Assembly: GCA_030710605.1 (NCBI GenBank) | Contig: CP092869.1 | Span: 13,461,295-13,525,294, forward strand | Reading direction: 5' to 3' | Source of the DNA: Cordylochernes scorpioides | Lineage: Eukaryota; Arthropoda; Arachnida; Pseudoscorpiones; Chernetidae | Length of the DNA: 64,000 nt | Shown: positions 13,128 through 61,059 of the stretch, piece after piece | How positions within the stretch are numbered: the stretch's first letter is position 1 | Layout of the letters: every line of letters begins with the position of its first letter | Program-made: the position numbers and the translations under genes | Notes under the pieces: generated by a model | What the model saw: only the letters and a program-made list of their open reading frames with translations | The model's database searches: none | Told to the model about the DNA's origin: nothing

Positions 13128-13833
13128 CAAGGTTGTCCCAAAAGTTCGTAAACACTTGAAAAAAATTGAAATACCAATATTATTCGCCATAATTTTATTG
13201 GCCGTTATGTATAATGTCTTTGTATCATGCTTAAAGTAATTGTATAATATGGTGGTGGTGTCTTGTCCATGGAGCAGATCAGATCGGTCCATGCACCCTG
13301 ATCACAATACCGGCCAACTGAGATATCTTGTCCATGGAGCAGATCAGATAGATCCATGCACCCTGATCACAATACCGGCCAACTGAGATATCTTGTCCAT
13401 GGAGCAGATCAGATAGATCCATGCACCCTGACCACAATACCAGCCAACTGAGATATCTCGTCCATGGAGCTGATCAGATCGGTCCATGTACCCTGATCAC
13501 AATACCTGCCAACTGAGGTGGTAGTGGTGTCTTGTCCATGGAACAGATCAGATCGGTCCATGCACCCTGATCACAATACCGGTCAACTGAGGTGGTGGTG
13601 GTGCCTTGTCCATGGAACAGATCAGATGGGTCCATGCACCCTGATCACAAAACCGGCCAACAAAGGTGCCTTGTTCGTATGGATTGCTTCTTCTGGATTG
13701 ATGTCTGTCATATAGAGGGCTGCAATGATGGCCGGGTATATATGGTCCGGAGTAAGTTGTATTAAGTATTCGCCGTAATAATATTATTCGCCAAGTAATA
13801 AGAAAAACACAAACTTTTGGGAAAACCTTATAA
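13128..13833. mobile_element. Family-F MITE interrupted by a LINE-tail array
   Basis: Left part ACAAGGTTGTCCCAAAAGTT...AATACCAATATTATTCGCC and right part ATTATTCGCCAAGTAATAAG...CAAACTTTTGGGAAAACCTT are the two halves of a family-F element (compare 32938-33112). Between them, 13246-13755 is a LINE 3'-end repeat array. The insertion lies inside the MITE core, giving a clear relative age. Confidence 0.7.
13246..13755 (-). repeat. Tandem array of a LINE 3' end (6 units)
   Basis: Six copies of a ~66-73-bp unit (CTTGTCCATGGAGCAGATCA ... ACAATACCGGCCAACTGAG). On the minus strand each unit reads the end of a LINE RNase-H-region protein (QLAGIVIRVHG) and a short 3' UTR. The array leads into the beginning of the less-repeated LINE segment (GGATTGATGTCTGTCATATA). 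The homologous locus at 57749-58713 shows the attached protein. Short plus-strand open frames here are shadows. Confidence 0.75.
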
Positions 13834-19173: not shown

Positions 19174-19306
19174 GCTCTTTGTCTGTTACCACGTATCCCA
19201 ATTACACATGGCCCCATTTTCCCGTTAGTCAGTCACATTTCGGAGTTCCCTGTTCACGGTTACCGTAGCGGCTCACGACACCGTACTACAGGGCAGTCCC
19301 TTACTT

Positions 19307-19411
19307 GTGCTGCTTCTCCCGCAAATCTACTATAATATTGGAACGATACAGAGAAGATTAGCCTGGCCCCTGCGCAAGGATGACACACAAAATCGTGAAG
19401 CGTTCCATATA
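19307..19411 (+). ncRNA. U6 snRNA-like sequence, near full length (probably a pseudogene)
   Basis: About 105 nt align with U6 from the GTGCT 5' end to GCGTTCCATAT. The TTGGAACGATACAGAGAAGA segment, with the ACAGAGA box that pairs with the 5' splice site, is intact. The AGC triad follows (GATTAGCCTGG, one base changed after AGC), then CCCCTGCGCAAGGATGAC and AATCGTGAAGCGTTCC. The 5' stem-loop is damaged (GCTTCTCCCGCAA in place of GCTTCGGCAGCAC). No T-run follows directly; the first TTTTT is ~10 bp later. I see no TATA box at the expected upstream distance. This argues for a retro-pseudogene, though a divergent gene cannot be excluded. It is the only unamplified U6 copy here. Confidence 0.75.
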
Positions 19412-20282
19412 ATATACGCTATTTTTAGTTATATATATTTATTAATTTTACATGATGTTTGTTTTATTCGCATTCTGATTGGATGATCAATGCCACATGA
19501 TCTCAATCGTCCAATCATCGTTGAGTTCATTATCCAATCAACTTTCAGAGTTTCTTTAGCTCATAGATTGCATTGAACAATACATTTCTTATTAAATATA
19601 TGATCATGGTTTCGATTCAAGGAAGTTCTCTTTGTTTTTTTTAATTAAAATTTTTCAATTTCATCATTCTAATTGTATATATACTTTTAAAAATCACTTT
19701 TTTTTTAATTTCTCAAGGTTTTTTTCAAGTATCGTGTTGATTACAAAAAAGTATAAGACGTCCCAACTTTTTGACCTTATATAGTTTTTTTTAAATCTTT
19801 GTACAATACTTGTATTATAAGGATCTTACACTCCTTAATCTGTAATAGGGAATTTCAGCGGAGTGAGAAGGGTCCAATTTTATTAAATCGAGATGTTTTT
19901 AGGTTTAAATTGTTCTTGAAATGTACCGTCGCATGTTCTACGAGAGAGAGACTGTAGTTTTAATGTTCTAGTAAAACAAGAGATAGGTAAACCCACGAAA
20001 TATGGTTAAAAATCACGTTACGGGAGTAACCAACGTGTGATTGAGCAAGGCATTCCGTAACATGGCACGCAAGCATTAAGGCAATTATAGACCAGTAAGG
20101 AGAGAGCGTGCATCAAAAATTTGGAAGCCGTAATTTAATGTGCTTGCATATTTCTCCAATTTCAGGAAGGCGAGCTCTTGCTTGTAGACACGCAAGACTG
20201 TCGTTTTTACATTAATGGCCTTCATTCAGTCTCTCTCTCTTCGAACTACAATAGCTCTTCCAGCGCATAAACCTCTCTCTGC

Positions 20283-27761: not shown

Positions 27762-27836
27762 TACATAGTGATATGCTACCATTGATTTCTTTTTTTTTTC
27801 TTCTTTTTCTTAGACTTCAGAACGAGTCAATCAATA

Positions 27837-28775
27837 CAGGGTGCTTCAAAAAAATGTATACACACTTTGAACTTCCATAGAAAATTTATTTACCGTTCTA
27901 CAAAGTTAAATTTCAGGAAAATAGAAAACTGAAAGTCCAATATAAATGAAACATAAATAACAAATGTTAATACTGTTCAAATTGGTGACCTGCAGCATCA
28001 ATACAATTCTGAGTACGAGTCACCACAGATTCTGTACATCGTATCAAAACGTCCAATGAGATTTCTCTACACACTGCTTGAATCTCATTCCAAAGAATGT
28101 CTAGGTTACGTGGTTTACGTTTGTACACCCCATCTTTTACTGTGCCCCACAAGAAGAAATCCAGTGGTGTAAGGTCTGGAGAGCGTGCTGGAAACTCGAT
28201 TGGCCCCCTGCGTCCTATCCACTGGCCCGACAAATTTTGATCCAGGTAAGCTCGTACGTCCCTGTGATAGTGCGGCGGAGCACCATCTAGTTGAAAATAA
28301 AAATCATCATTACCGTATAATGCACGAATGGCAGGAAATATGGAATCAGCAAGCATTGTTAGGTAATTAATACCAGTTACAGTGCCTTCAAATAGAAAAG
28401 GTCCAATGAGTCCCCTTGAAGACAAACCGCACCACACATTTACACCACTGGATTTCTTCTTGTGGGGCACAGTAAAAGATGGGGTGTACAAACGTAAACC
28501 ACGTAACCTAGACATTCTTTGGAATGAGATTCAAGCAGTGTGTAGAGAAATCTCATTGGACGTTTTGATACGATGTACAGAATCTGTGGTGACTCGTACT
28601 CAGAATTGTATTGATGCTGCAGGTCACCAATTTGAACAGTATTAACATTTGTTATTTATGTTTCATTTATATTGGACTTTCAGTTTTCTATTTTCCTGAA
28701 ATTTAACTTTGTAGAACGGTAAATAAATTTTCTATGGAAGTTCAAAGTGTGTATACATTTTTTTGAAGCACCCTG
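27837..28775 (-). mobile_element. Fold-back mariner-type element
   Basis: 939 bp with ends CAGGGTGCTTCAAAAAAATG and its complement, flanked by TA at 27835-27836 and 28776-28777. Both arms, 336 bp each (27837-28172 and 28440-28775), are complementary with no difference visible to me. Each is a copy of the transposon's 3' part, including the transposase C-terminus. The 267-bp centre (28173-28439) keeps a single-copy piece of transposase. The element's own 5' end and N-terminal coding part are absent. Confidence 0.85.
27967..28515 (-). pseudogene. Tc1/mariner-type transposase, C-terminal catalytic half
   Basis: The DDE-type transposase of this family cuts and rejoins element ends at TA. The frame shows GVNVWCGLSSRGLIGPFLFE, then the second catalytic aspartate in FQLDGAPPHY and the third acidic position in ARSPDLTPLDFFLWG, with 36 residues between the two aspartates, and runs to the natural stop. 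The first ~16 residues (SFTVPHKKKSSG...) come from translation of the inverted arm. The helix-turn-helix domain and first catalytic aspartate are missing. The plus-strand frame 28382-28645 repeats the last ~63 residues because of the inverted arm. Not functional alone; its termini could still be substrates. Confidence 0.8.
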
Positions 28776-29147
28776 TATAAGACGAGATTTTGTTGCATAT
28801 CATGCATGAATGTGCCCATGATGGTACTATGGATACTTACCTAGTAGAAATAGTAAAAAAGAATGTACGCTGTCAACAAAGTGAGATACTTGGGAAATAT
28901 ATTTCTCCCTGAAAGTGGCAGTGCGATGGGTGACTTGAGGACGCCTCCTGTTCCACTGAATGACCCCAGGGCCGAGCACAGACAATGGTGACGGTGGGCG
29001 GAGGTCACGGGCCTCGCCTCAATGACGACCAAGAAAGAAGCTGACCATCTGTTTGCATGGCTCCATGAACTTTCACTACTCGTCTGTGACTTGGGTGCTT
29101 ATATCTTACTTTAGGTTATTGCACCAAGTTGTATCTTTGCAGGGTAA

Positions 29148-30386
29148 GGGATACAGAGAAGATTAGCATAGCACCCGTGATACCAGTTCGGCGGTACAAC
29201 TACTACAATAGGAAGGATACAGAGAAGATTAGCATGGCCCCTGTGATACCAATTCGGCGGTACAACTACTACAATAAGAAGGATACAGAGAAGATTAGCA
29301 TAGCACCCGTGATACCAGTTCGGCGGTACAACTACTGCAATAGGAAGGGTACAGAAAAGTTTAGCATGGCCCCTGTGATACCAATTCGGCGGTACAACTA
29401 CTACAATAGGAAGGATACAGAGAAGATTAGCATGGCCCCTGTGATACCAGTTCGGCGGTACAACTACTACAATAGGAAGGATACAGAGAAGATTAGCATG
29501 GCCCCTGTGATACCAATTCGGCGGTACAACTACTACAATAAGAAGGATACAGAGAAGATTAGCATAGCACCCGTGATACCAGTTCGGCGGTACAACTACT
29601 GCAATAGGAAGGGTACAGAAAAGTTTAGCATGGTCCTTGTAATACCATTTCGGCGGTACAACTACTACAATAGGAAGGATACAGAGAAGGTTAGCATGGC
29701 CCCTGTGATACCAGTTCGGCGGTACAACTACTACAATAGGAAGGATACAGAGAAGATTAGCATGGCCCCTGTGATACCAATTCGGCGGTACAACTACTAC
29801 AATAGGAAGGATACAGAGAAGATTAGCATGGCCCCTGTGATACCAGTTCGGCGGTACAACTACTACAATAGGAAGGATACAGAGAAGATTAGCATGGCCC
29901 CTGTGATACCAGTTCGGCGGTACAACTACTACAATAGGAAGGATACAGAGAAGATTAGCATGGCCCCTGTAATACCAGTTCGGCGGTACAACTACTACAA
30001 TAGGAATGATACAGAGAAGATTAGCATGGCCCCTGTGATACCAGTTCGGCGGTACAACTACTACAATAGGAACGATACAGAGAAGATTAGCATGGCCCCT
30101 GTGATACCAGTTCGGCGGTACAGCTACTACAATTGGAACGATACAGAGAAGATTAGCATGGCCCCTGTGATACCAGTTCGGCGGTACAACTACTACAATA
30201 GGAAGGATACAGAGAAGATTAGCATGGCCCCTGTAATACCAGTTCGGCGGTACAACTACTACAATAGGAATGATACAGAGAAGATTAGCATGGCCCCTGT
30301 GATACCAGTTCGGCGGTACAACTACTATAATAGGAAGGATACAGAGAAGATTAGCATGGATGACACGCAAAATCGTGAAGCATTCT
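29148..30386 (+). repeat. U6 snRNA-derived 66-bp tandem array 1 (19 cores)
   Basis: GATACAGAGAAGATTAGCAT recurs every 66 bp from 29150 to 30338 (18 intervals). Aligned to U6, TTCGGCGGTACAACTACTAC matches the 5' stem-loop region, AATAGGAA(C)GATACAGAG the ACAGAGA region, and GATTAGCATGGCCCCTG the AGC triad and 5' half of the internal stem-loop. The next unit's 5' end then begins (GTGATACCAG). Only the last core continues into the U6 3' domain (GATGACACGCAAAATCGTGA, then AGCATTC). Units 2-4 and 6-8 share the same variants (AAGAAGG, ACTGCAATAGGAAGGGTACA, AAAAGTTTAGC), so a 4-unit block was itself duplicated. Long frames on both strands (419 and 458 codons) follow from a stop-free unit of 22 codons. 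No TTTT interrupts the array. No U6-type promoter was recognised upstream. Confidence 0.92.
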
Positions 30387-30726
30387 AAAAAGGATGCTAT
30401 AAGAGGGTCACGTGTTTCCACAGGTCTGGGCACCGCAAGCTGCCGGAGGTGAAAGACCTGGGAAGTCGGGTCAGCCCTGGAAATCAATAGAGAACCTCCA
30501 CGATAGGTTTTGGCATGTCTCCGAGACCTCTGACGTCACGCTACCTTCTTTCCTCCTCTAGTCATCCTTTAACGACAACCAGAGCACAGACATTCATTCT
30601 ATGTAAACACACCTTCATCCTTGACTTTACAATTTAATAAAATCTACAAGCAATAAGGACCAAGTTTATTTTACTATTTATATATTTCTAGCTTTCGGGC
30701 TAATATGTCCTTCAACAGGAGAACTA

Positions 30727-31235
30727 ACACCTATTCACATATTCTCATGCCTAGCAATGGCCGCAGCCTTGCAGAAAATTGACATGGACCCAGATCAGCA
30801 GCTTTACACACCCAAGATAGAGGACATTGCGACTGCTCTGATAGAGATGTATGGGGACATCTGAGGCTCTTCATTGGACACAACAACAACAGAAAATTGA
30901 CATGGACCCAGAGCAGCAGCTTTACATACCCAAGATAGTGGACATTGCTGCTGCTGTGATAGAGATGTATGGAGACATCTGAGGCTCTTCATTGGACACA
31001 ACAACAACAACATAAAATTGACATGGACTCATAACAGCAGTTTTACACACCCAAGATAGAGGACATTGTGACTGCTGTGATAGAGATGCATGGAGACATC
31101 TGAGGCTCTAATTGGACACAGCAACAACAGAAAATTGACATGGACACAGAACAGCACCTTTACACACCCAAGATAGAGGACATTGTGACTGCTGTGATAG
31201 AGATGCATGAAGATATCAGAGGCTCTTGGATACGA
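30727..31235 (+). repeat. Tandem array of a LINE 3' end (4 units)
   Basis: After a partial LINE segment (ACCTATTCACATATTCTCAT), a ~120-bp unit encoding KIDMDPEQQLYTPKIVDIA...IEMYGDI, stop and a (CAA)n stretch is repeated four times. The same ending occurs once at 31912-32030. It is therefore the LINE's last ~30 codons plus 3' UTR in tandem. Minus-strand open frames here are shadows. A CTAGCTTTCGGGCTAATATG/GCATATTAGCCCGAAAACTAG inverted pair at ~30690 and ~31325 brackets the array. Bases 30387-30690 are GC-rich near 30410-30530 with nothing recognised. Confidence 0.75.
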
Positions 31236-35487: not shown

Positions 35488-38388
35488 CTAAATACAGATG
35501 TCGAGGTTACTGGGTCCTATATATTGTATTAAACTTACTTCATTGCTGGTTCTGGTGGATTCCTTTATACCATGAGAAAATATTGGCTTGTTAGAGAATC
35601 CTCCAAAGGTATAAGTGATTTTGGAAAAAGTTGAGTATATTGGTTTAAAAGGTTTTGGTTCATTGGACAGGAATGGGTGAATTAGTTGAGAAGATCTAGG
35701 CTCATTGGACAGGGATGGGTGAATTTGTTGAGGAGGTCTAGGCTCATTGGACAGATATGGGTGAATTAGTTGAGAAGATCTAGGCTCATTGGACAGATAT
35801 GGGTGAATTAGTTGAGAAGGTCTAGGTTCATTGGGCAGGAATGGGTGAATTAGTTGAGAAGGTCTAGGCTCATTGGGCAGGAATGGGTGAATTAGTTGAG
35901 AAGGTCTAAGCTCATTGGGCAGGAATGGGTGAATTAGTTGAGAAGGTCTAGGTTCATTGGGCAGGAATGGGTGAATTAGTTGAGAAGGTCTAGGTTCATT
36001 GGATAGGAATGGGTGAATTAGTTGAGAAGGTCTAGGCTCATTGGGCAGGAATGGGTGAATTAGTTGAGAAGGTCTAGGCTCATTGGGCAGGAATGGTGGA
36101 ATAAGTTGAGAAGGTCTAGGTTCATTGGGCAGGAATGGGTGAATTAGTTGAGAAGGTCTAGGTTCATTGGATAGGAATGGGTGAATTAGTTGAGAAGGTC
36201 TAGGCTCATTGGGCAGGAATGGGTGAATTAGTTGAGAAGGTCTAGGTTCATTGGGCAGGAATGGGTGAATTAGTTGAGAAGGTCTAGGTTCATTGGATAG
36301 GAATGGGTGAATTAGTTGAGAAGGTCTAGGCTCATTGGGCAGGAATGGGTGAATTAGTTGAGAAGGTCTAGGCTCATTGGACAGATATGGGTGAATTAGT
36401 TGAGAAGGTCTAGGTTCATTGGGCAGGAATGGGTGAATTAGTTGAGAAGGTCTAGGCTCATTGGGCAGGAATGGGTGAATTAGTTGAGAAGGTCTAGGCT
36501 CATTGGGCAGGAATGGGTGAATTAGTTGAGAAGGTCTAGGTTCATTGGGCAGGAATGGGTGAATTATTCGAGAAGGTCTAGACTCATTGGGCAGGAATGG
36601 GTGAATTATTCTAGAAGGTCTAGGTTCATTGGGCAGATATGGGTGAGTTTGTTGAGGAGGTCTAGGTTCATTGGGCAGGAATGGGTGAATTAGTTGAGAA
36701 GGTCTAGGCTCATTGGGCAGGAATGGGTGAATTAGTTGAGAAGGTCTAGGACAATTGGGCAGGAATGGGTGAATTAGTTGAGAAGGTCTAGGCTCATTGG
36801 GCAGGAATGGGTCAATTAGTTGAGAAGGTCTAGGCTCATTGGGCAGGAATGGGTGAATTAGTTGAGAAGGTCTAGGACAATTGGGCAGGAATGGGTGAAT
36901 TAGTTGAGAAGGTCTAGACTCATTGGGCAAGAATGGGTGAATTAGTTGAGAAGGTCTAGGCTCATTGGGCAGGAATGGGTCAATTAGTTGAGAAGGTCTA
37001 GGCTCATTGGGCAGGAATGGGTGAATTAGTTGAGAAGGTCTAGACTCATTGGGCAAGAATGGGTGAATTAGTTGAGAAGGTCTAGGCTCATTGGGCAGGA
37101 ATGGGTGAATTAGTTGAGAAGGTCTAGGCTTATTGGACAGATATGGGTGAATTAGTTGAGAAGGTCTAGGACAATTGGGCAGGAATGGGTGAATTAGTTG
37201 AGAAGGTCTAGGCTCATTGGGCAGGAGTGGGTGAATTAATTGAGAAGGTCTAGGCTCATTGGTCAGATATGGGTGAATTAGTTGAGAAGGTCTAGGCTCA
37301 TTGGGCAGGAATGGGTGAATTAGTTGAGAAGGTCTAGACTCATTGGGCAAGAATGGGTGAATTAGTTGAGAAGGTCTAGGCTCATTGGGCAGGAATGGGT
37401 GAATTAGTTGAGAAGGTCTAGACTCATTGGGCAAGAATGGGTGAATTAGTTGAGAAGGTCTAGGCTCATTGGGCAGGAATGGGTCAATTAGTTGAGAAGG
37501 TCTAGGCTCATTGGGCAGGAATGGGTGAATTAGTTGAGAAGGTCTAGACTCATTGGGCAAGAATGGGTGAATTAGTTGAGAAGGTCTAGGCTCATTGGGC
37601 AGGAATGGGTGAATTAGTTGAGAAGGTCTAGGCTTATTGGACAGATATGGGTGAATTAGTTGAGAAAGTCTAGGCTCATTGGGCAGAAATGGGTGAATTA
37701 GTTGAGAAGGTCTAGGACAATTGGGCAGGAATGGGTGAATTAGTTGAGAAGGTCTAGGCTCATTGGGCAGGAGTGGGTGAATTAATTGAGAAGGTCTAGG
37801 CTCATTGGTCAGATATGGGTCAATTAGTTGAGAAGGTCTAGGCTCATTGGTCAGATATGGGTGAATTAGTTGAGAAGGTCTAGACTCATTGGGCAGGAAT
37901 GGATGAATTAGTTGAGAAGCTCTAGGCTCATTGGGCAGGAATGGGTGAATTAGTTGAGAAGGTCTAGGTTCATTGGGCAGGAATGGGTGAATTAGTTGAG
38001 AAGGTCTAGGCTCATTGGGCAGATATGGGTGAATTAGTTGAGAAAGTCTATGTTCATTGGGAAGATATGGGTCAATTAGTTGAGAAGGTCTAGGCTCATT
38101 GGGCAGGAATGGGTGAATTAGTTGAGAAGGTCTAGGCTCATTGGGCAGGAATGGGTGAATTAGTTGAGAAGGTCTAGGTTCATTGGGCAGGAATGGGTGA
38201 ATTAGTTGAGAAGGTCTAGGCTCATTGGGCAGATATGGGTGAATTAGTTGAGAATGTCTAGGCTCATTGGACAGGAATGGGTGAATTAGTTGAGAATGTC
38301 TAGGCTCATTGGACAGGAATGGGTGAGTTAGTTGAGAAAGTCTAGGCTTATTGGGCAGGAATGGGTGAATTAGTTGAGACGGCCTTGG
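35488..38388 (-). CDS. Long open frame through the 42-bp satellite (hypothetical; 967 codons stop-to-stop)
   Basis: The minus frame is open from the TAA at 38389-38391 down to a stop at 35488. It consists of ~65 repeats of PNEPRPSQLIHPFL plus a unique C-terminal tail of ~55 residues (SKITYTFGGFSNKPIFSHG and on to NLDICI). There is no ATG near its start; the first non-ATG candidate is TTG at 37560. Variation among units includes amino-acid changes (E to C, P to S, H to D), and the unit simply lacks stops in this one frame. Conservation of phase may therefore be passive. In favour of coding: the repeat passes in frame into non-repetitive sequence, and none of ~69 units has acquired a stop. Against: no start, no signal peptide, and a stop at each 2,100-bp block edge. 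A second frame of 700 codons (40488-38389) repeats the situation. Confidence 0.25.
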   Translation of the reverse strand, partial: PRPSQLIHPFLPNKPRLSQLTHPFLSNEPRHSQLIHPFLSNEPRHSQLIHPYLPNEPRPSQLIHPFLPNEPRPSQLIHPFLPNEPRPSQLIHPFLPNEPRPSQLIDPYLPNEHRLSQLIHPYLPNEPRPSQLIHPFLPNEPRPSQLIHPFLPNEPRASQLIHPFLPNESRPSQLIHPYLTNEPRPSQLIDPYLTNEPRPSQLIHPLLPNEPRPSQLIHPFLPNCPRPSQLIHPFLPNEPRLSQLIHPYLSNKPRPSQLIHPFLPNEPRPSQLIHPFLPNESRPSQLIHPFLPNEPRPSQLIDPFLPNEPRPSQLIHPFLPNESRPSQLIHPFLPNEPRPSQLIHPFLPNESRPSQLIHPFLPNEPRPSQLIHPYLTNEPRPSQLIHPLLPNEPRPSQLIHPFLPNCPRPSQLIHPYLSNKPRPSQLIHPFLPNEPRPSQLIHPFLPNESRPSQLIHPFLPNEPRPSQLIDPFLPNEPRPSQLIHPFLPNESRPSQLIHPFLPNCPRPSQLIHPFLPNEPRPSQLIDPFLPNEPRPSQLIHPFLPNCPRPSQLIHPFLPNEPRPSQLIHPFLPNEPRPPQQTHPYLPNEPRPSRIIHPFLPNESRPSRIIHPFLPNEPRPSQLIHPFLPNEPRPSQLIHPFLPNEPRPSQLIHPFLPNEPRPSQLIHPYLSNEPRPSQLIHPFLPNEPRPSQLIHPFLSNEPRPSQLIHPFLPNEPRPSQLIHPFLPNEPRPSQLIHPFLSNEPRPSQLIHPFLPNEPRPSQLIPPFLPNEPRPSQLIHPFLPNEPRPSQLIHPFLSNEPRPSQLIHPFLPNEPRPSQLIHPFLPNELRPSQLIHPFLPNEPRPSQLIHPFLPNEPRPSQLIHPYLSNEPRSSQLIHPYLSNEPRPPQQIHPSLSNEPRSSQLIHPFLSNEPKPFKPIYSTFSKITYTFGGFSNKPIFSHGIKESTRTSNEVSLIQYIGPSNLDICI

Positions 38389-40590
38389 TTAATTGGGCAG
38401 GAATGGGTGAATTAGTTGAGAAGGTCTAGGCTTATTGGGCAGGAATGGGTGAATTAGTTGAGAAGGTCTAGGCTCATTGGACAGATATGGGTGAATTAGT
38501 TGAGAAGGTCTAGGTTCATTGGGCAGGAATGGGTGAATTAGTTGAGAAGGTCTAGGCTCATTGGGCAGGAATGGGTGAATTAGTTGAGAAGGTCTAGGCT
38601 CATTGGGCAGGAATGGGTGAATTAGTTGAGAAGGTCTAGGTTCATTGGGCAGGAATGGGTGAATTATTCGAGAAGGTCTAGACTCATTGGGCAGGAATGG
38701 GTGAATTATTCTAGAAGGTCTAGGTTCATTGGGCAGATATGGGTGAGTTTGTTGAGGAGGTCTAGGTTCATTGGGCAGGAATGGGTGAATTAGTTGAGAA
38801 GGTCTAGGCTCATTGGGCAGGAATGGGTGAATTAGTTGAGAAGGTCTAGGACAATTGGGCAGGAATGGGTGAATTAGTTGAGAAGGTCTAGGCTCATTGG
38901 GCAGGAATGGGTCAATTAGTTGAGAAGGTCTAGGCTCATTGGGCAGGAATGGGTGAATTAGTTGAGAAGGTCTAGGACAATTGGGCAGGAATGGGTGAAT
39001 TAGTTGAGAAGGTCTAGACTCATTGGGCAAGAATGGGTGAATTAGTTGAGAAGGTCTAGGCTCATTGGGCAGGAATGGGTCAATTAGTTGAGAAGGTCTA
39101 GGCTCATTGGGCAGGAATGGGTGAATTAGTTGAGAAGGTCTAGACTCATTGGGCAAGAATGGGTGAATTAGTTGAGAAGGTCTAGGCTCATTGGGCAGGA
39201 ATGGGTGAATTAGTTGAGAAGGTCTAGGCTTATTGGACAGATATGGGTGAATTAGTTGAGAAGGTCTAGGACAATTGGGCAGGAATGGGTGAATTAGTTG
39301 AGAAGGTCTAGGCTCATTGGGCAGGAGTGGGTGAATTAATTGAGAAGGTCTAGGCTCATTGGTCAGATATGGGTGAATTAGTTGAGAAGGTCTAGGCTCA
39401 TTGGGCAGGAATGGGTGAATTAGTTGAGAAGGTCTAGACTCATTGGGCAAGAATGGGTGAATTAGTTGAGAAGGTCTAGGCTCATTGGGCAGGAATGGGT
39501 GAATTAGTTGAGAAGGTCTAGACTCATTGGGCAAGAATGGGTGAATTAGTTGAGAAGGTCTAGGCTCATTGGGCAGGAATGGGTCAATTAGTTGAGAAGG
39601 TCTAGGCTCATTGGGCAGGAATGGGTGAATTAGTTGAGAAGGTCTAGACTCATTGGGCAAGAATGGGTGAATTAGTTGAGAAGGTCTAGGCTCATTGGGC
39701 AGGAATGGGTGAATTAGTTGAGAAGGTCTAGGCTTATTGGACAGATATGGGTGAATTAGTTGAGAAAGTCTAGGCTCATTGGGCAGAAATGGGTGAATTA
39801 GTTGAGAAGGTCTAGGACAATTGGGCAGGAATGGGTGAATTAGTTGAGAAGGTCTAGGCTCATTGGGCAGGAGTGGGTGAATTAATTGAGAAGGTCTAGG
39901 CTCATTGGTCAGATATGGGTCAATTAGTTGAGAAGGTCTAGGCTCATTGGTCAGATATGGGTGAATTAGTTGAGAAGGTCTAGACTCATTGGGCAGGAAT
40001 GGATGAATTAGTTGAGAAGCTCTAGGCTCATTGGGCAGGAATGGGTGAATTAGTTGAGAAGGTCTAGGTTCATTGGGCAGGAATGGGTGAATTAGTTGAG
40101 AAGGTCTAGGCTCATTGGGCAGATATGGGTGAATTAGTTGAGAAAGTCTATGTTCATTGGGAAGATATGGGTCAATTAGTTGAGAAGGTCTAGGCTCATT
40201 GGGCAGGAATGGGTGAATTAGTTGAGAAGGTCTAGGCTCATTGGGCAGGAATGGGTGAATTAGTTGAGAAGGTCTAGGTTCATTGGGCAGGAATGGGTGA
40301 ATTAGTTGAGAAGGTCTAGGCTCATTGGGCAGATATGGGTGAATTAGTTGAGAATGTCTAGGCTCATTGGACAGGAATGGGTGAATTAGTTGAGAATGTC
40401 TAGGCTCATTGGACAGGAATGGGTGAGTTAGTTGAGAAAGTCTAGGCTTATTGGGCAGGAATGGGTGAATTAGTTGAGACGGCCTTGGTTAATTGGGCAG
40501 GAATGGGTGAATTAGTTGAGAAGGTCTAGGCTTATTGGGCAGGAATGGGTGAATTAGTTGAGAAGGTCTAGGCTCATTGGGCAGATATGG
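35657..40590 (-). repeat. 42-bp satellite (~117 units) with a 2,100-bp duplicated block
   Basis: Unit GAATGGGTGAATTAGTTGAG followed by AAGGTCTAGGCTCATTGGGC and AG, with strict 42-bp phase. Unit variants (GATATGG, GACAATTGG, GGAGTGGGTGAATTAATTG, GAATTATTC/TGAG) allow blocks to be followed. 36361-38460 and 38461-40560 (50 units each) read the same, line for line, with no difference I could see, and the block before (36301-36360 versus 38401-38460) differs by one base. On the minus strand the unit encodes 14 residues (PNEPRPSQLIHPFL). Confidence 0.95.
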
Positions 40591-40737
40591 GAACTGGCAG
40601 TCGAGGCTCGTCCGCAAAAACAAAACGGTGTCAATTAGGGGTATAATGGCCTTTGTTCGGCCTGCCCAAGCGAGACGGTCATCTAACGACGACCAGACCG
40701 TGCGACTTCTGAATGAAGCTTCAATGTATTTTATCAT
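40489..40737 (-). CDS. Short ATG frame entering the satellite (hypothetical)
   Basis: Starts with ATG at 40737, reads ~50 unique residues (MIKYIEASFRSRTVWSSLDD at the start, then AGRTKAIIPLIDTVLFLRTS) and joins the PNEPRPSQLIHPFL repeats in frame, stopping at the TAA of the block boundary (40489-40491). It could be the original upstream end of whatever sequence the satellite grew from. The DNA is GC-richer than its surroundings. No family recognised. The plus-strand frame opposite is equally long, so coding is unproven. Confidence 0.25.
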   Translation of the reverse strand: MIKYIEASFRSRTVWSSLDDRLAWAGRTKAIIPLIDTVLFLRTSLDCQFPYLPNEPRPSQLIHPFLPNKPRPSQLIHPFLPN

Positions 40738-49860: not shown

Positions 49861-50370
49861 GATTCTTCGTTTGATCTCTTGAAATATGAGACACTTCGGC
49901 CAGTAAAAGCTCTATTTGCCGGTGAGTCTTTTATTTCAAGAGCAATGAATATCGGCCAGGCAACCTCTATTTTCAAGATAGTTTGATATCATGCACCTGT
50001 TCTTCGAAGAGTTCCCCAGGCCTCCTGCCAACTTCGAAAAGAGCTGCAGCCTTTGGTTCGATTCCTGGAAAAAAAAAAAAAGATCTGTTCTAAGGAAACT
50101 TCCTGGATATCGCGAAATGTCCTGGGCCTCATAATCCCATAGTTTTCCGTCTATTTTGTCGAGAATGGTATTCTTTCTTTTGATAGATCAAATTCCTCCA
50201 GGCAAACTTTCCGTCTTCAAGATTTATATATACAAGGCCTAATTTAGGAGGATGCTTCAAGAGAAGGACATCCACAAATGAGCATTGTTCTATCACTATT
50301 TGGGGGCATGAAAGGGGGGGGGGGGCTATTTTCCTTCATCGCTATGTCCTCAATTTATCCGGTTATCAGT

Positions 50371-51156
50371 AGAACGCTTCACGATTTTGCGTGTCATCCT
50401 TGCGCAGGGGCCATGCTAATCTTCTCTGTATCCTTCCTATTGTAGTAGTTGTACCGCCGAACTGGTATCACAGGAACCATGCTAATCTTCTCTGTATTCT
50501 TCCTATTGTAGTAGTTGTACACAGGGGCCATGCTAATCTTCTCTGTATCCTTCCTATTGTAGTAGTTGTACCGCCGAACTGGTATCACAGGGGCCATGCT
50601 AATCTTCTCTGTATCCTTCCTATTGTAGTAGTTGTACCGCCGAACTGGTATCACAGGGGCCATGCTAATCTTCTCTGTATCCTTCCTATTGTAGTAGTTG
50701 TACCGCCGAACTGGTATCACAGGGGCCATGCTAATCTTCTCTGTATCCTTCCTATTGTAGTAGTTGTACCGCCGAACTGGTATCACAGAAACCATGCTAA
50801 TCTTCTCTGTATCCTTCCTATTGTAGTAGTTGTACCGCCGAACTGGTATCACAGAGACCATGCTAATCTTCTCTGTATCGTTCCTATTGTAGTAGTTGTA
50901 CAGCCGAACTGGTATCACAGGGACAATGCTAATCTTCTCTGTATCGTTCCTATTGTTGTAATTGTACCCGCTGATCACAGGGACAATGCTAATCTTCTCT
51001 GTATCGTTCCTATTGTTGTAATTGTACCCGCTGATCACAGGGACAATGCTAATCTTCTCTGTATCGTTCCTATTGTTGTAATTGTACCCGCTGATCACAG
51101 GGACAATGCTAATCTTCTCTGTATCGTTCCTATTGTAGTATTTCTACCGCCGAACT
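50371..51156 (-). repeat. U6 snRNA-derived tandem array 2 (12 cores, reverse)
   Basis: On the minus strand, 12 ACAGAGA/AGC cores are followed by one U6 3' domain at the low-coordinate end (complement of GAACGCTTCACGATTTTGCG, then TGTCATCCTTGCGCAGGGGC). This end keeps the normal U6 order CCCCTGCGCAAGGATGACAC. Most units are 66 bp. One near 50520 is shortened, lacking the CCGCCGAACTGGTAT part. Three units (50941-51120) are identical 60-bp variants in which the 5' stem-loop part is replaced by GTGATCAGCGGGTACAATTA. Long frames on both strands come from stop-free units in multiples of three. Confidence 0.92.
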
Positions 51157-51720
51157 CACAAGCGTGTTGCTACCAAAACTTTAGAGCTATCTGCTGAAAT
51201 TATAGCACAACGTTAAAACCCAAAATGAAATTATTAAGCACGACTTTGTTTTCTTTTCAAATGAAGCAAACTTCCTACTGTCCTTACTGAGATGACAAAA
51301 GTATTGGCAGTTGTCCTGGCACACATATATCAAAACTTTGTCTTTATTTTCAATTTGATTCAAGATGTACATATATCTGTTAGTCATCTTCCATAGCACC
51401 AGTAAGTCAGATGAAAGTTTCCCAGCTAGGACCAGAAAGAATCGAATAGAATGGGTGGGTAGAAATAGGACTTGATTTTACTGTCTCCATTCCAGCTATA
51501 GATGTCATTTACTGAACGAGTCCAATGTACATTGTGTAGAGGTTGGCGACTGCTTTTACTGTAAGCGCACCACATATCTACACATGTGAAAAACAGTTAT
51601 ACTTTGCACTTAAAAATGTGTCAGAGCCTCCTTTCGTTACTTTCACTCGCTGGTGGGATTGAACCTTTGCAAGAATCGAGGGCCATTGGAAAATTTTTAA
51701 ATATTTTTTAATCAGAAAAA

Positions 51721-53200: not shown

Positions 53201-56172
53201 CACTCATGGACAGGAAGTGGAAAGTCTTTGATGTCGCCGATCGTCTATATTTTTTGAAGGAGACAGAGGCAATTTTGTTCACACTTGGTTATCTCGTGTG
53301 TCTTCAATAAAGGTGTCACTGTAATATCTTTAAGAGTTATTGCCTGAATCCGAAATATACATACTAAAAGGTACAACTTCCTTAAGTTTTGTCTCCATGA
53401 GTGTATCTTTCAGAGTTATTATCTGAATCCCGATATACATACTAAAAGGTACAACTTCCTTAAGTTTTGTCCATGAGTGTATCTTTCAGAGTTATTATCT
53501 GAATCCCGAATATACATGGTAAAAGGTACAACTTCCTTAAGTTTTGTCTATGAGTGTATCTTTCATAGTTATTGTCTGAATCCCGATATACATACTAAAA
53601 GGTACAACTTCCTTAAGTTTTGTCTCCATGAGTGTATCTTTCAGAGTTATTATCTGAATCCCGATATACATGGTAAAAGGTACAACTTCCTTAAGTTTTG
53701 TCCATGAGTGTATCTTTCAGATTTATTGTCTGAATCCCGATATACATACTAAAAGGTACAACTTCCTTAAGTTTTGTCTCCATGAGTGTATCTTTCAGAG
53801 TTATTGTCTGAATCCCGATATACATACTAAAAGGTACAACTTCCTTAAGTTTTGTCCATGAGTGAATCTTTCAGAGTTATTATCTGAATCCCGAATATAC
53901 ATGGTAAAAGGTACAACTTCCTTAAGTTTTGTCCATGAGTGTATCTTTCAGAGTTATTATCTGAATCCCGAATATACATGGTAAAAGGTACAACTTCCTT
54001 AAGTTTTGTCCATGAGTGTATCTTTCAGAGTTATTATCTGAATCCCGAATATACATGGTAAAAGGTACAACTTCCTTAAGTTTTGTCCATGAGTGTATCT
54101 TTCAGAGTTATTATCTGAATCCCGAATATACATGGTAAAAGGTACAACTTCCTTAAGTTTTGTCCATGAGTGTATCTTTCAGAGTTATTATCTGAATCCC
54201 GAATATACATGGTAAAAGGTACAACTTCCTTAAGTTTTGTCCATGAGTGTATCTTTCAGAGTTATTATCTGAATCCCGAATATACATGGTAAAAGGTACA
54301 ACTTCCTTAAGTTTTGTCCATGAGTGTATCTTTCAGAGTTATTATCTGAATCCCGAATATACATGGTAAAAGGTACAACTTCCTTAAGTTTTGTCCATGA
54401 GTGTATCTTTCAGAGTTATTATCTGAATCCCGAATATACATGGTAAAAGGTACAACTTCCTTAAGTTTTGTCCATGAGTGTATCTTTCAGAGTTATTATC
54501 TGAATCCCGAATATACATGGTAAAAGGTACAACTTCCTTAAGTTTTGTCCATGAGTGTATCTTTCAGAGTTATTATCTGAATCCCGAATATACATGGTAA
54601 AAGGTACAACTTCCTTAAGTTTTGTCCATGAGTGTATCTTTCAGAGTTATTATCTGAATCCCGAATATACATGGTAAAAGGTACAACTTCCTTAAGTTTT
54701 GTCCATGAGTGTATCTTTCAGAGTTATTATCTGAATCCCGAATATACATGGTAAAAGGTACAACTTCCTTAAGTTTTGTCCATGAGTGTATCTTTCAGAG
54801 TTATTATCTGAATCCCGAATATACATGGTAAAAGGTACAACTTCCTTAAGTTTTGTCCATGAGTGTATCTTTCAGAGTTATTATCTGAATCCCGAATATA
54901 CATGGTAAAAGGTACAACTTCCTTAAGTTTTGTCCATGAGTGTATCTTTCAGAGTTATTGTCTGAATCCCGATATACATGGTAAAAGGTACAACTTCCTT
55001 AAGTTTTGTCTCCATGAGTGTATCTTTCAGAGTTATTGTCTGAATCCCGATATACATACTAAAAGGTACAACTTCCTTAAGTTTTGTCCATGAGTGAATC
55101 TTTCAGAGTTATTATCTGAATCCCGAATATACATGGTAAAAGGTACAACTTCCTTAAGTTTTGTCCATGAGTGTATCTTTCAGAGTTATTATCTGAATCC
55201 CGAATATACATGGTAAAAGGTACAACTTCCTTAAGTTTTGTCCATGAGTGTATCTTTCAGAGTTATTATCTGAATCCCGAATATACATGGTAAAAGGTAC
55301 AACTTCCTTAAGTTTTGTCCATGAGTGTATCTTTCAGAGTTATTATCTGAATCCCGAATATACATGGTAAAAGGTACAACTTCCTTAAGTTTTGTCCATG
55401 AGTGTATCTTTCAGAGTTATTATCTGAATCCCGAATATACATGGTAAAAGGTACAACTTCCTTAAGTTTTGTCCATGAGTGTATCTTTCAGAGTTATTAT
55501 CTGAATCCCGAATATACATGGTAAAAGGTACAACTTCCTTAAGTTTTGTCCATGAGTGTATCTTTCAGAGTTATTATCTGAATCCCGAATATACATGGTA
55601 AAAGGTACAACTTCCTTAAGTTTTGTCCATGAGTGTATCTTTCAGAGTTATTATCTGAATCCCGAATATACATGGTAAAAGGTACAACTTCCTTAAGTTT
55701 TGTCCATGAGTGTATCTTTCAGAGTTATTATCTGAATCCCGAATATACATGGTAAAAGGTACAACTTCCTTAAGTTTTGTCCATGAGTGTATCTTTCAGA
55801 GTTATTATCTGAATCCCGAATATACATGGTAAAAGGTACAACTTCCTTAAGTTTTGTCCATGAGTGTATCTTTCAGAGTTATTGTCTGAATCCCGATATA
55901 CATGGTAAAAGGTACAACTTCCTTAAGTTTTGTCCATGAGTGTATCTTTCAGAGTTATTATCTGAATCCCGAATATACATGGTAAAAGGTACAACTTCCT
56001 TAAGTTTTGTCCATGAGTGTATCTTTCAGAGTTATTATCTGAATCCCGAATATACATGGTAAAAGGTACAACTTCCTTAAGTTTTGTCCATGAGTGTATC
56101 TTTCAGAGTTATTGTCTGAATCCCGATATACATGGTAAAAGGTACAACTTCCTTAAGTTTTGTCCATGAGTG
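53201..56172. mobile_element. TA-flanked MITE expanded by ~37 units of 77 bp (family E, copy 3)
   Basis: Ends CACTCATGGACA and TGTCCATGAGTG are perfect complements, with TA on both sides (53199-53200; 56173-56174). The left ~125 bp match copies 1 and 2. From ~53327 the 77-bp unit (TCTTTCAGAGTTATTATCTG AATCCCGAATATACATGGTA AAAGG...) repeats to the right end. Two unit types alternate: one with CCCGATATACATACTAAAAG and one with CCCGAATATACATGGTAAAA. A block of units (53720-53880) recurs at 54945-55105, so blocks were duplicated as well. Each unit contains the right terminus. Confidence 0.85.
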
Positions 56173-56461
56173 TATATAGACCAGACTAACCAAGAAGCCG
56201 TCCAGAAGGTGACAGACAAACCTAGTGTCATAATGTCAATACTGAGTCACCTCCAGACCTCGACAACAAGACCAGTTCCTAATCTTACAGATAAAGTTCA
56301 GAGAGAACCCGGTCATACAGTGCCCTTCTGGAACAAGGTAACATCTACTCCACTTCTGTTGTTTTGTAGATGCTTGGAATCTACCTTTAGCTATCATTTT
56401 CCAATTCCAGAGGTATTTTTTTAACACTTCCTATTCCTTTCTAACCCATTTTTATAATATA

Positions 56462-57573: not shown

Positions 57574-57748
57574 ATAATATATATAAGCATAGGGCACCTC
57601 TCCCGTCAAAATAAACCCTAAAACCTGACACCATCTATTTTGACGGGAGAGGCGCCCTATGCTTCTATGGATCAATTTCCTCCCGGCAAATTTTACATCA
57701 ATATATATATGCTTCTAGTTGCAAGCCACGTGTATCTATTAAGATTAT

Positions 57749-58410
57749 GGTGGTGGTGTCTTGTCCATGGAGCAGACCAGATCAGTCCATGCACCCTGAT
57801 CACAATACTGGCCAACTGAGGTGGTGGTGTCTTGTCCATGGAGCAGATCAGATCGATCCATGCACCCTGATCACAATACCGGCCAACTGAGGTGGTGGTG
57901 GTGTCTTGTCCATGGAGCAGATCAGATCGATCCATGCACCCTGATCACAATACCGGCCAACTGAGGTGGTGGTGGTGTCTTGTCCATGGAGCAGATCAGA
58001 TCGATCCATGCACCCTGATCACAATACCGGCCAACTGAGGTGGTGGTGTCTTGTCCATGGAGCAGATCAGATCGATCCATGCACCCTGATCACAATACCG
58101 GCCAACTGAGGTGGTAGTGGTGTCTTGTCCATGGAGCAGATCAGATCGATCCATGCACCCTGATCACAATACCGGCCAACTGAGGTGGTGGTGTCTTGTC
58201 CATGGAGCAGATCAGATCGATCCATGCACCCTGATCACAATACCGGCCAACTGAGGTGGTGATGGTGTCTTGTCCATGGAGCAGATCAGATCGATCCATG
58301 CACCCTGATCACAATACCGGCCAACTGAGGTGGTGATGGTGTCTTGTCCATGGAGCAGATCAGATCAGTCCATGCACCCTGATCACAATACCGGCCAACT
58401 GAGGTGCCGT
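57749..58410 (-). repeat. Tandem array of a LINE 3' end (9 units)
   Basis: Nine copies of a ~69-74-bp unit (TGTCTTGTCCATGGAGCAGA TCAGATCGATCCATGCACCC TGATCACAATACCGGCCAAC TGAGG), differing mostly in the number of GGT triplets. On the minus strand the last unit is the end of the LINE frame at 58360-58713 (APQLAGIVIRVHGLI and stop), so the others are duplications of its last codons plus 3' UTR. Same unit as 13246-13755. Confidence 0.8.
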
Positions 58411-58713: not shown

Positions 58714-58748
58714 CCTTCCTTCGCAAGGCCATCAGCTTGTTTATTGCC

Positions 58749-60887
58749 CAGTTCGGCGGTACAACTACTACAATAATAACGATACAGAGAAGATTAGCAT
58801 GGCCCCTGTGATACCAGTTTGGCGGTACAACTACTACAATAATAACGATACAGAGAAGATTAGCATGGTCCCTGTGATACCAGTTTGGCGGTACAACTAC
58901 TACAATAATAACGATACAGAGAAGATTAGCATGGCCCCTGTGATACCAGTTTGGCGGTACAACTACTACAATAATAACGATACAGAGAAGATTAGCATGG
59001 TCCCTGTGATACCAGTTTGGCGGTACAACTACTACAATAATAACGATACAGAGAAGATTAGCATGGTCCCTGTGATACCAGTTTGGCGGTACAACTACTA
59101 CAATAATAACGATACAGAGAAGATTAGCATGGTCCCTGTGATACCAGTTTGGCGGTACAACTACTACAATAATAACGATACAGAGAAGATTAGCATGGTC
59201 CCTGTGATACCAGTTCGGCGGTACAACTACTACAATAATAACGATACAGAGAAGATTAGCATGGTCCCTGTGATACCAGTTCGGCGGTACAACTACTACA
59301 ATAATAACGATACAGAGAAGATTAGCATGGTCCCTGTGATACCAGTTCGGCGGTACAACTACTACAATAATAACGATACAGAGAAGATTAGCATGGTCCC
59401 TGTGATACCAGTTTGGCGGTACAACTACTACAATAATAACGATACAGAGAAGATTAGCATGGTCCCTGTGATACCAGTTCGGCGGTACAACTACTACAAT
59501 AATAACGATACAGAGAAGATTAGCATGGTCCCTGTGATACCAGTTTGGCGGTACAACTACTACAATAATAACGATACAGAGAAGATTAGCATGGTCCCTG
59601 TGATACCAGTTTGGCGGTACAACTACTACAATAATAACGATACAGAGAAGATTAGCATGGCCCCTGTGATACCAGTTTGGCGGTACAACTACTACCATAG
59701 GAACGATACAGAGAAGATTAGCATGGCCCCTGTGATACCAGTTCGGCGGTACAACTACTACAATAGGAAGGATACAGAGAAGATTAGCATGGTCCCTGTG
59801 ATACCAGTTTGGCGGTACAACTACTACCATAGGAACGATACAGAGAAGATTAGCATGGCCCCTGTGATACCAGTTCGGCGGTACAACTACTACAATAATA
59901 ACGATACAGAGAAGATTAGCATGGTCCCTGTGATACCAGTTTGGCGGTACAACTACTACAATAATAACGATACAGAGAAGATTAGCATGGCCCCTGTGAT
60001 ACCAGTTTGGCGGTACAACTACTACCATAGGAACGATACAGAGAAGATTAGCATGGCCCCTGTGATACCAGTTCGGCGGTACAACTACTACAATAGGAAG
60101 GATACAGAGAAGATTAGCATGGTCCCTGTGATACCAGTTCGGCGGTACAACTACTACAATAATAACGATACAGAGAAGATTAGCATGGCCCCTGTGATAC
60201 CAGTTTGGCGGTACAACTACTACCATAGGAACGATACAGAGAAGATTAGCATGGCCCCTGTGATACCAGTTCGGCGGTACAACTACTACAATAGGAAGGA
60301 TACAGAGAAGATTAGCATGGTCCCTGTGATACCAGTTCGGCGGTACAACTACTACAATAGGAACGATACAGAGAAGATTAGCATGGTCCCTGTGATACCA
60401 GTTTGGCGGTACAACTACTACAATAGGAACGATACAGAGAAGATTAGCATGGCCCCTGTGATACCAGTTCGGCGGTACAACTACTACAATAGGAAGGATA
60501 CAGAGAAGATTAGCATGGCCCCTGTGATACCAGTTCGGCGGTACAACTACTACAATAGGAAGGATACAGAGAAGATTAGCATGGCCCCTGTGATACCAGT
60601 TCGGCGGTACAACTACTACAATAGGAAGGATACAGAGAAGATTAGCATGGCCCCTGTGATACCAGTTCGGCGGTACAAATACTACAATAGGAAGGATACA
60701 GAGAAGATTAGCATGGCCCCTGTGATACCAGTTCGGCGGTACAAATACTACAATAGGAAGGATACAGAGAAGATTAGCATGGTCCCTGTGATACCAGTTC
60801 GGCGGTACAACTACTACAATAGGAAGGATACAGAGAAGATTAGCATGGCCCATGCGCAAGGATGACACGTAAAACCATGAAGCGGTT
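58749..60887 (+). repeat. U6 snRNA-derived 66-bp tandem array 3 (32 cores)
   Basis: GATACAGAGAAGATTAGCAT recurs at exact 66-bp intervals from 58781 to 60827 (31 intervals). Two main unit types exist, CAATAATAAC and CAATAGGAA(C/G), arranged in blocks; GTTCGG and GTTTGG alternate in the stem-loop part, and CCATAGGAACG units recur as a higher-order pattern (59690-60300). The final core continues into the U6 3' domain, GCCCATGCGCAAGGATGACA and so on, with small changes (ACCATGAAGCGGTT). The first unit begins at the U6-like 5' part (CAGTTCGGCGGTACAAC). Frames of 736 and 728 codons on opposite strands result from the 22-codon stop-free unit. No TTTT occurs in either strand, so Pol III would not be stopped inside. 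Confidence 0.93.
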
Positions 60888-61059
60888 GGTGTTTCTCCCA
60901 GAGCTTGTTGTTCGGCTGATAGGAAGTTGTCCAGTCAGGGAAACGACAAACTAGCCGACATCCGCCCAGATAGACTGGCGGCACAAACATGCCTGGACGG
61001 AAGAAGGCGGTGGCTTCCGTTACTGCGTCATACATCTCCACTTCTTTCACATCTGTCAC
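60888..61059 (-). other. GC-richer, protein-like stretch beside U6 array 3
   Basis: The minus frame (from 61059) reads MTDVKEVEMYDAVTEATAFF, then FVPPVYLGGCRLVCRFPDWT and runs into the array. The unique ~63 residues look like ordinary protein sequence and the DNA is GC-richer than its surroundings. I recognise no family. It might be an exon or a retroelement scrap. Bases 61060-61911 are AT-rich; a ~90-bp direct repeat (CAAATCATTTTG...TTAAGCAAT.AAATATATAG) at 61185-61345 is the only structure seen. Confidence 0.25.

Follow-up and report, generated by a model that had tools for sequence, protein, structure and literature searches.

SVA-type retroposons are non-autonomous elements with an internal VNTR of variable length. 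Kojima is said to have described, in 2015, SINEs with snRNA-derived heads, that is, retroposons derived from snRNA, and a 2009 paper by Hasnaoui reportedly concerns, to judge by its title, an ancient U6 snRNA-derived repeat in primates. U6 pseudogenes have been described in mammals and other vertebrates (PMC4476161). In the available text of that source, processed U6 pseudogenes are attributed to LINE machinery and have target-site duplications, no poly(A) and pairing at the 3′ junction; tailless snRNA copies of mammals are ascribed to target-primed reverse transcription; and the word ‘tandem’ is absent from the main text (PMC4476161). LINEs are also known to switch template to U6 (excerpts of PMC4476161 and PMC13174262). 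The nearest published kind, in the literature as excerpted, is the squamate SINE-derived satellite (sSat), in which part of an element is repeated in tandem and a longer terminal unit runs to the element's terminus (PMC10702118). The titles and abstract openings of the open-licence papers listed by our searches describe no tandem U6-derived array, which leaves an earlier mention possible.

The arrays of the chernetid pseudoscorpion Cordylochernes scorpioides described here differ from SVA in parts and lineage, since what is arrayed is the 5′ domain of the element itself, and, compared by description only, they differ from SINEs with an snRNA head in having no separate tail region behind the U6 part. 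They resemble sSats, as these are characterised in the available part of PMC10702118, in occupying many dispersed loci, in their within-locus homogeneity and in a terminal unit that reaches the element end. Unlike sSats, their source is the snRNA U6 and not a SINE, both array ends are mostly U6 termini (a minor variant in sSats), and duplications surround some whole U6 arrays. With the U6 processed pseudogenes of the excerpted PMC4476161 the U6 copies here share LINE-type copying and the lack of poly(A), and also target-site duplications, these last around most single copies and some arrays; unlike those pseudogenes, the copies here reach the U6 3′ end, number thousands by pattern and include internal arrays. 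We put at about 0.6 the probability that they form a family of non-autonomous retroposons which derives from U6 snRNA and carries a tandem array inside the element.

The window, by which we mean the whole 64,000-nucleotide stretch of DNA that was analysed, contains a focal array, two further arrays and a single copy (Table 1). In the focal array, TRF reports a period of 66 with 31.8 copies, 97% matches and 0% indels, and the 32 cores located by a core motif are all spaced 66 apart, in agreement with the 66-bp unit, 32 copies and constant phase of the preliminary description. The first unit starts inside the junction sequence defined below, and by eye the 5′ end of the array likewise lies within it. 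Rfam cmscan calls U6 (RF00026) on many of the units with E-values of ∼1e-8 to 1e-10, which exclude a chance likeness, and most units, together with the ends of all three window arrays, score above the RF00026 gathering cut-off of 44 bits. As had been claimed, only the last unit passes into the U6 3′ domain: there the cmscan match extends over the full length, with the 3′ domain altered after ∼60887, and the other copies do not hold a complete RNA. Because the unit is 22 codons without a stop, it gives rise to long ORFs (737 aa on the plus strand and 750 aa on the minus strand). A protein product of these was considered and rejected, the single Pfam match being below the cut-off (17.7 vs 25 bits).

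Table 1. U6-derived features of the window (positions are those of the window unless a contig is given)
Feature	Position	Strand	Basis
Focal array: 32 units x 66 bp, GTGATACCAG junction plus U6 ∼nt 12-66	58748..60848	+	TRF, cmscan, unit listing, core spacing
Stretch with 17 units of the private AATAATAACG variant	58758..60178 = C7:13520052-13521472	+	exact genome matches
Last focal unit, running on into the U6 3′ domain	60791..60896	+	RF00026 positions 1-105, 87.5 bits, E 5.5e-21
Second array, ∼18-19 units, 5′ end truncated, 3′ end a partly deleted U6 3′ domain	29149..30394	+	TRF 29149-30359, cmscan to 30394, units
Third array, 12 cores, some 60-bp units, ending in a full U6 3′ domain	∼50363..51161	-	TRF, cmscan, units, spacings
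Single U6 copy, decayed 5′ part, no array	19305..19414	+	cmscan 87 bits, E 8e-21

The true U6 genes of the species form a group at C20:27.70-27.73 Mb, start with GTACTCGCTTGTTCGGCGGTACATATACTAAAATTGG, and have TATATAAG at ∼-30 and a seven-T run behind. The unit aligns to these genes, and with the cmscan scores chance is ruled out. It consists of a 10-nt junction, GTGATACCAG, followed by U6 from TTCGGCGG to CCCCT. The junction is non-U6 sequence common to the arrays; it occupies the place of the species' own U6 5′ end GTACTCGCTTG, so that the first 11 nt are replaced. The unit is also changed further in, reading CAACTACTACAATAGG where the genes have CATATACTAAAATTGG. The U6 origin of the unit therefore stands, while its extent, first given as the first ∼65 nt of U6, becomes ∼nt 12-66 behind the 10-nt junction.

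The second and third window arrays are built on the same plan as the focal array. The terminal U6 3′ domain of the second carries an internal deletion, and the third opens with a U6-like 5′ end, ACACGCTTGTGAG. With two further arrays in the window and a dispersed family sharing the junction, the view of the focal array as the sole local duplication of one U6 copy no longer holds.

Several other repeats lie in the window. Minisatellites beside U6 arrays at 57748-58406, 30772-31227 and 13261-13661 are also tandem, with units that read ...PQLAGIVIRVHGSI* and ...KIEDIVTAVIEMHGDI* and that to us resemble the terminal, 3′ part of a LINE reading frame; Pfam gives no match for the ORFs near them. A 77-bp minisatellite occurs twice (2701-2945 and 53325-56175), and its reverse complement stands, by eye, directly behind the U6 array of locus L071. 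A 42-bp repeat of 117.7 copies fills 35649-40591 and leaves the minus strand open over 966 and 699 codons. Finally, a 339-bp inverted repeat with 100% identity (27834-28172 / 28440-28778) flanks and overlaps an ORF at 27967-28530 (-), which is presumably mariner-like and has no Pfam match.

A search of the whole assembly with a 45-nt pattern across the unit boundary (≤3 mismatches) found 17,959 unit junctions, against 0 for the reversed control, which bears out a repeated unit and speaks against a single local event. This pattern recovers 355 of the 417 junctions in 15 arrays of which all or a large portion was read, a flattering recall because 12 of the 15 test arrays were picked through that pattern or the Rfam search. 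Exact array 5′ ends number 149 genome-wide with a strict pattern, and the 100 of these 149 matches that were listed fall on 12 contigs. Since the strict pattern catches only 3 of the 15 arrays read, our total of several hundred arrays is a guess and not a count. Matches to the U6 3′ domain number 2,452 in the genome (≤2 mismatches), and all 48 of the best full-length U6 candidates scored exceed 103 bits; in the U2 control, one copy reaches 133.6 bits and the next 101.3 among the 46 best candidates scored. Searches for the unit gave no match in a virus contig collection, scanned with two patterns, or in a prokaryote contig collection. U6 5′ ends also recur at C1:7578490-7579092 (steps of ∼113 bp), C6:97158598-97159119 (∼121), C14:58471143-58471498 (∼106 bp) and C19:69434721-69435872 (∼112). 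These ∼106-121-bp steps would fit tandem repetition of an entire U6 copy with a few extra bases, which may be a target-site duplication.

Single U6 copies have been retroposed in large numbers, as by LINE-type target-primed reverse transcription. Target-site duplications (flank score ≥8) accompany 22 of 27 single copies, as against 4.4% of 702 mismatched pairs; the 27 are those with both ends readable, from loci drawn either by the 3′ domain or by the 5′ end, and a few of their shared flanks are TCTC simple repeats in which a chance match is possible. At many loci drawn by the 3′ domain a full-length U6 ends in GTTC or GTTCCAT with no poly(A), others holding the 3′ part only, and by eye the 3′ flanks of single copies diverge directly behind these endings. 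No SINE body and no tail was seen in the single copies. Most sampled U6 copies begin (GT)ACACGC, and the genes begin GTACTCGC. None of the 30 loci drawn by the exact U6 3′ domain holds a 66-bp array; one of them, L041, has three diverged U6 3′ domains. Two singles, L096 and L097, share flanks.

The arrays share an outline that begins with a U6 5′ end, continues through n units with the common 10-nt junction and closes with a U6 3′ end. By script, a U6-like 5′ end opens 18 of 26 arrays, and in a table of the five commonest unit starts it occurs once per array. Duplication scores of ≥8 were obtained for 3 of the 7 arrays with usable ends (the ends of one, L075, were set by hand), compared with 2.4% of 42 mismatched pairs; below the threshold, L076 scores 7, and Wb, L074 and L080 score 4. 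At L078, 14 bp are duplicated on either side of ∼30 units plus a later insertion. The focal array has no clear target-site duplication by eye, and several arrays are missing either a U6 3′ domain or a clear duplication. Such gaps would fit a spread of the unit at the DNA level, by circles, conversion or segmental copying, with no RNA step for the arrays, as would the positions of the first 100 exact junction matches listed, all of them on C1 and at 1-7 and 63-69 Mb. The arrays L037 and L073 have common flanks, so some copying is segmental, in keeping with the same explanation. However, arrays that end at U6 termini and the duplications in 3 of 7 argue against it, and we regard DNA-level spread as the general route as highly improbable.

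In the sampled arrays the head-to-tail junctions are of one type, in which CCCCTG passes into GTGATACCAG or GTGATACTTG. Twelve of the sampled arrays were picked with the junction in the search pattern; nonetheless, all 8 long elements picked without it have units that pass the junction filter, like the other arrays. Anchoring tolerated ≤5 changes over a 22-nt core and so leaned towards units with conserved cores; the filter then kept a unit if it departed from the reference unit by ≤14 differences and its junction by ≤5 of 14 nt, and 491 units passed, the others being dropped. Because the junction is common, the duplication most likely arose once, in one founder event, and was then passed on and spread. 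The second spelling, GTGATACTTG, is nearer to the U6 5′ end, and we infer an order of the two spellings. L080 contains gene-like units behind the common junction, which suggests that the junction predates the change to CAACTACTACAATAGG. Alternatively, each array could have been made anew at insertion by repeated template jumps of a reverse transcriptase on U6 RNAs. Such jumps would yield just the outline of a 5′ end, n copies of the 5′ domain and a full 3′ end, and template switching of LINEs to U6 is known from the accessible portions of PMC4476161 and PMC13174262. The common non-U6 10-nt junction would, however, need remaking every time, and we consider this origin very unlikely. A single founder junction remains our reading; it would have formed when a reverse transcriptase that had reached the 5′ end of a U6 RNA jumped to a second such RNA at ∼nt 66 or, alternatively, through DNA-level duplication of a retrocopy.

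Besides being inserted, arrays have grown. The private AATAATAACG variant fills 17 of the 32 focal units, and 17 of its 17 exact genome matches lie in the focal array. Since this exact pattern is found nowhere else, the focal array has also expanded in place: after insertion it grew or was homogenised by unequal exchange or replication slippage. Hence, of the earlier proposal that one U6 copy underwent repeated internal duplication, duplication in place is borne out by the private variants and a purely local origin is not. Variants exclusive among the sampled arrays occur likewise in L077 (17 of 35 units) and L100 (7 of 10). Moreover, the between-array minus within-array distance is 1.14, and the maximum of 300 shuffles is 0.37.

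How many units an insert carried bears on what is mobile. Position 39 is mixed within 20 of 26 arrays and the junction spelling within 7 of 26, which suggests several junction units per insert; conversion between arrays could do likewise. When arrays are compared by position, unit 2 is alike across them (3.54 vs 5.60 for random units) and units 3-8 are not, which speaks against a fixed multi-unit master. For this comparison, units with indels were left out and L073 was dropped (its flanks are as in L037); both arrays are in the 26-array counts. Among 20 elements picked by a 38-nt U6-like 5′ end alone (exact matches to a pattern without the junction, tightly clustered rows left out), 11 are single, 8 are long arrays, showing 9-11 units before the 800-bp stretch runs out, and 1, L086, is complex.

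It is conceivable that only a one-junction dimer is mobile, that longer arrays grew in place, and that mixed variants came from recurrent mutation or conversion between arrays. The growth in place of the focal array, the frequency of private variants, the existence of a two-core element (L030) and a unit order held in common only as far as unit 2 agree with this account. The mixed junction spellings and position 39 would nonetheless require either conversion or inserts with at least two junction units, and none of the 20 elements picked by their 5′ end has 2-5 units; we therefore judge a dimer-only mobile form unlikely. We favour instead an account in which RNAs with one to several junctions would have been retroposed by a LINE to hundreds of sites, the arrays then growing locally after insertion. 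A bolder version, which we hold only tentatively and rather doubt, is that long RNAs of multiple U6 5′ domains were transcribed from some array, retroposed whole and re-seeded arrays, growth and spread feeding each other.

Transcription of the arrays bears on such RNAs. The preliminary description had noted that the unit lacks a T4 terminator, and indeed there is no TTTT on either strand of the reference unit. Its further suggestion of a Pol III transcript across the array fared less well: the gene-type TATATAAG was not seen before the focal array, and a limited search found no promoter-bearing array. By reading, the region upstream of the focal array has no TATA like that of the true genes at ∼-30. 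Among GTACACGC copies, none that might be a promoter-bearing source matches the start region of the true genes with ≤1 mismatch, and three matches on C2, with 2 mismatches to that region, have TAAAAAGTTGT before them. Sequence common to the upstream sides of L080 and L092 was considered as a promoter and rejected; it is a repeat with 1,040 genome places that adjoins a U6 5′ end in 3. The U6 5′ ends of L080, L092 and C22:39600166-39600201 lie within a few bases of one spot in this repeat, which would be an insertion hotspot or a chimera.

The array might itself function as an RNA gene, such as a decoy that pairs with 5′ splice sites. The focal array retains both ACAGAGA and AGC in 31 of 31 counted units, and the absence of a T4 stop from the reference unit would suit a transcribed gene. 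Elsewhere, however, the catalytic motifs decay in many arrays: across 26 arrays ACAGAGA is intact in 365 of 491 units and AGC in 442 of 491, and conservation at the ten positions of the two motifs does not exceed that of ten positions drawn at random (fraction 0.20), though the picking of units favoured the core. With many motifs lost, no special conservation and no promoter seen, we regard a working RNA gene as extremely unlikely; a splice-site decoy would be possible in principle and is unsupported by these sequences. No function need be invoked: satellite-like arrays that expand on retroposed seeds, whether selfishly or neutrally, would be enough.

In practical terms, results obtained with U6 probes, or normalised to U6, could be misleading for C. 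scorpioides. More broadly, a repeat of a known kind here has a new source, a U6 fragment, and the family offers a natural record of mobile copies turning satellite-like. It is not yet settled by what route dispersed retroposons turn into satellite DNA. The source here is a known, conserved RNA of ∼106 nt whose ends are exact, which allows break points, termini and units to be located at single-base resolution. One and the same variant occurs both as single copies and as long arrays, and a single founder junction is traceable across the genome. The exact ends, the coexisting forms and the traceable junction therefore open the succession of jump, insertion and expansion to testing, both in this arachnid and in related species.
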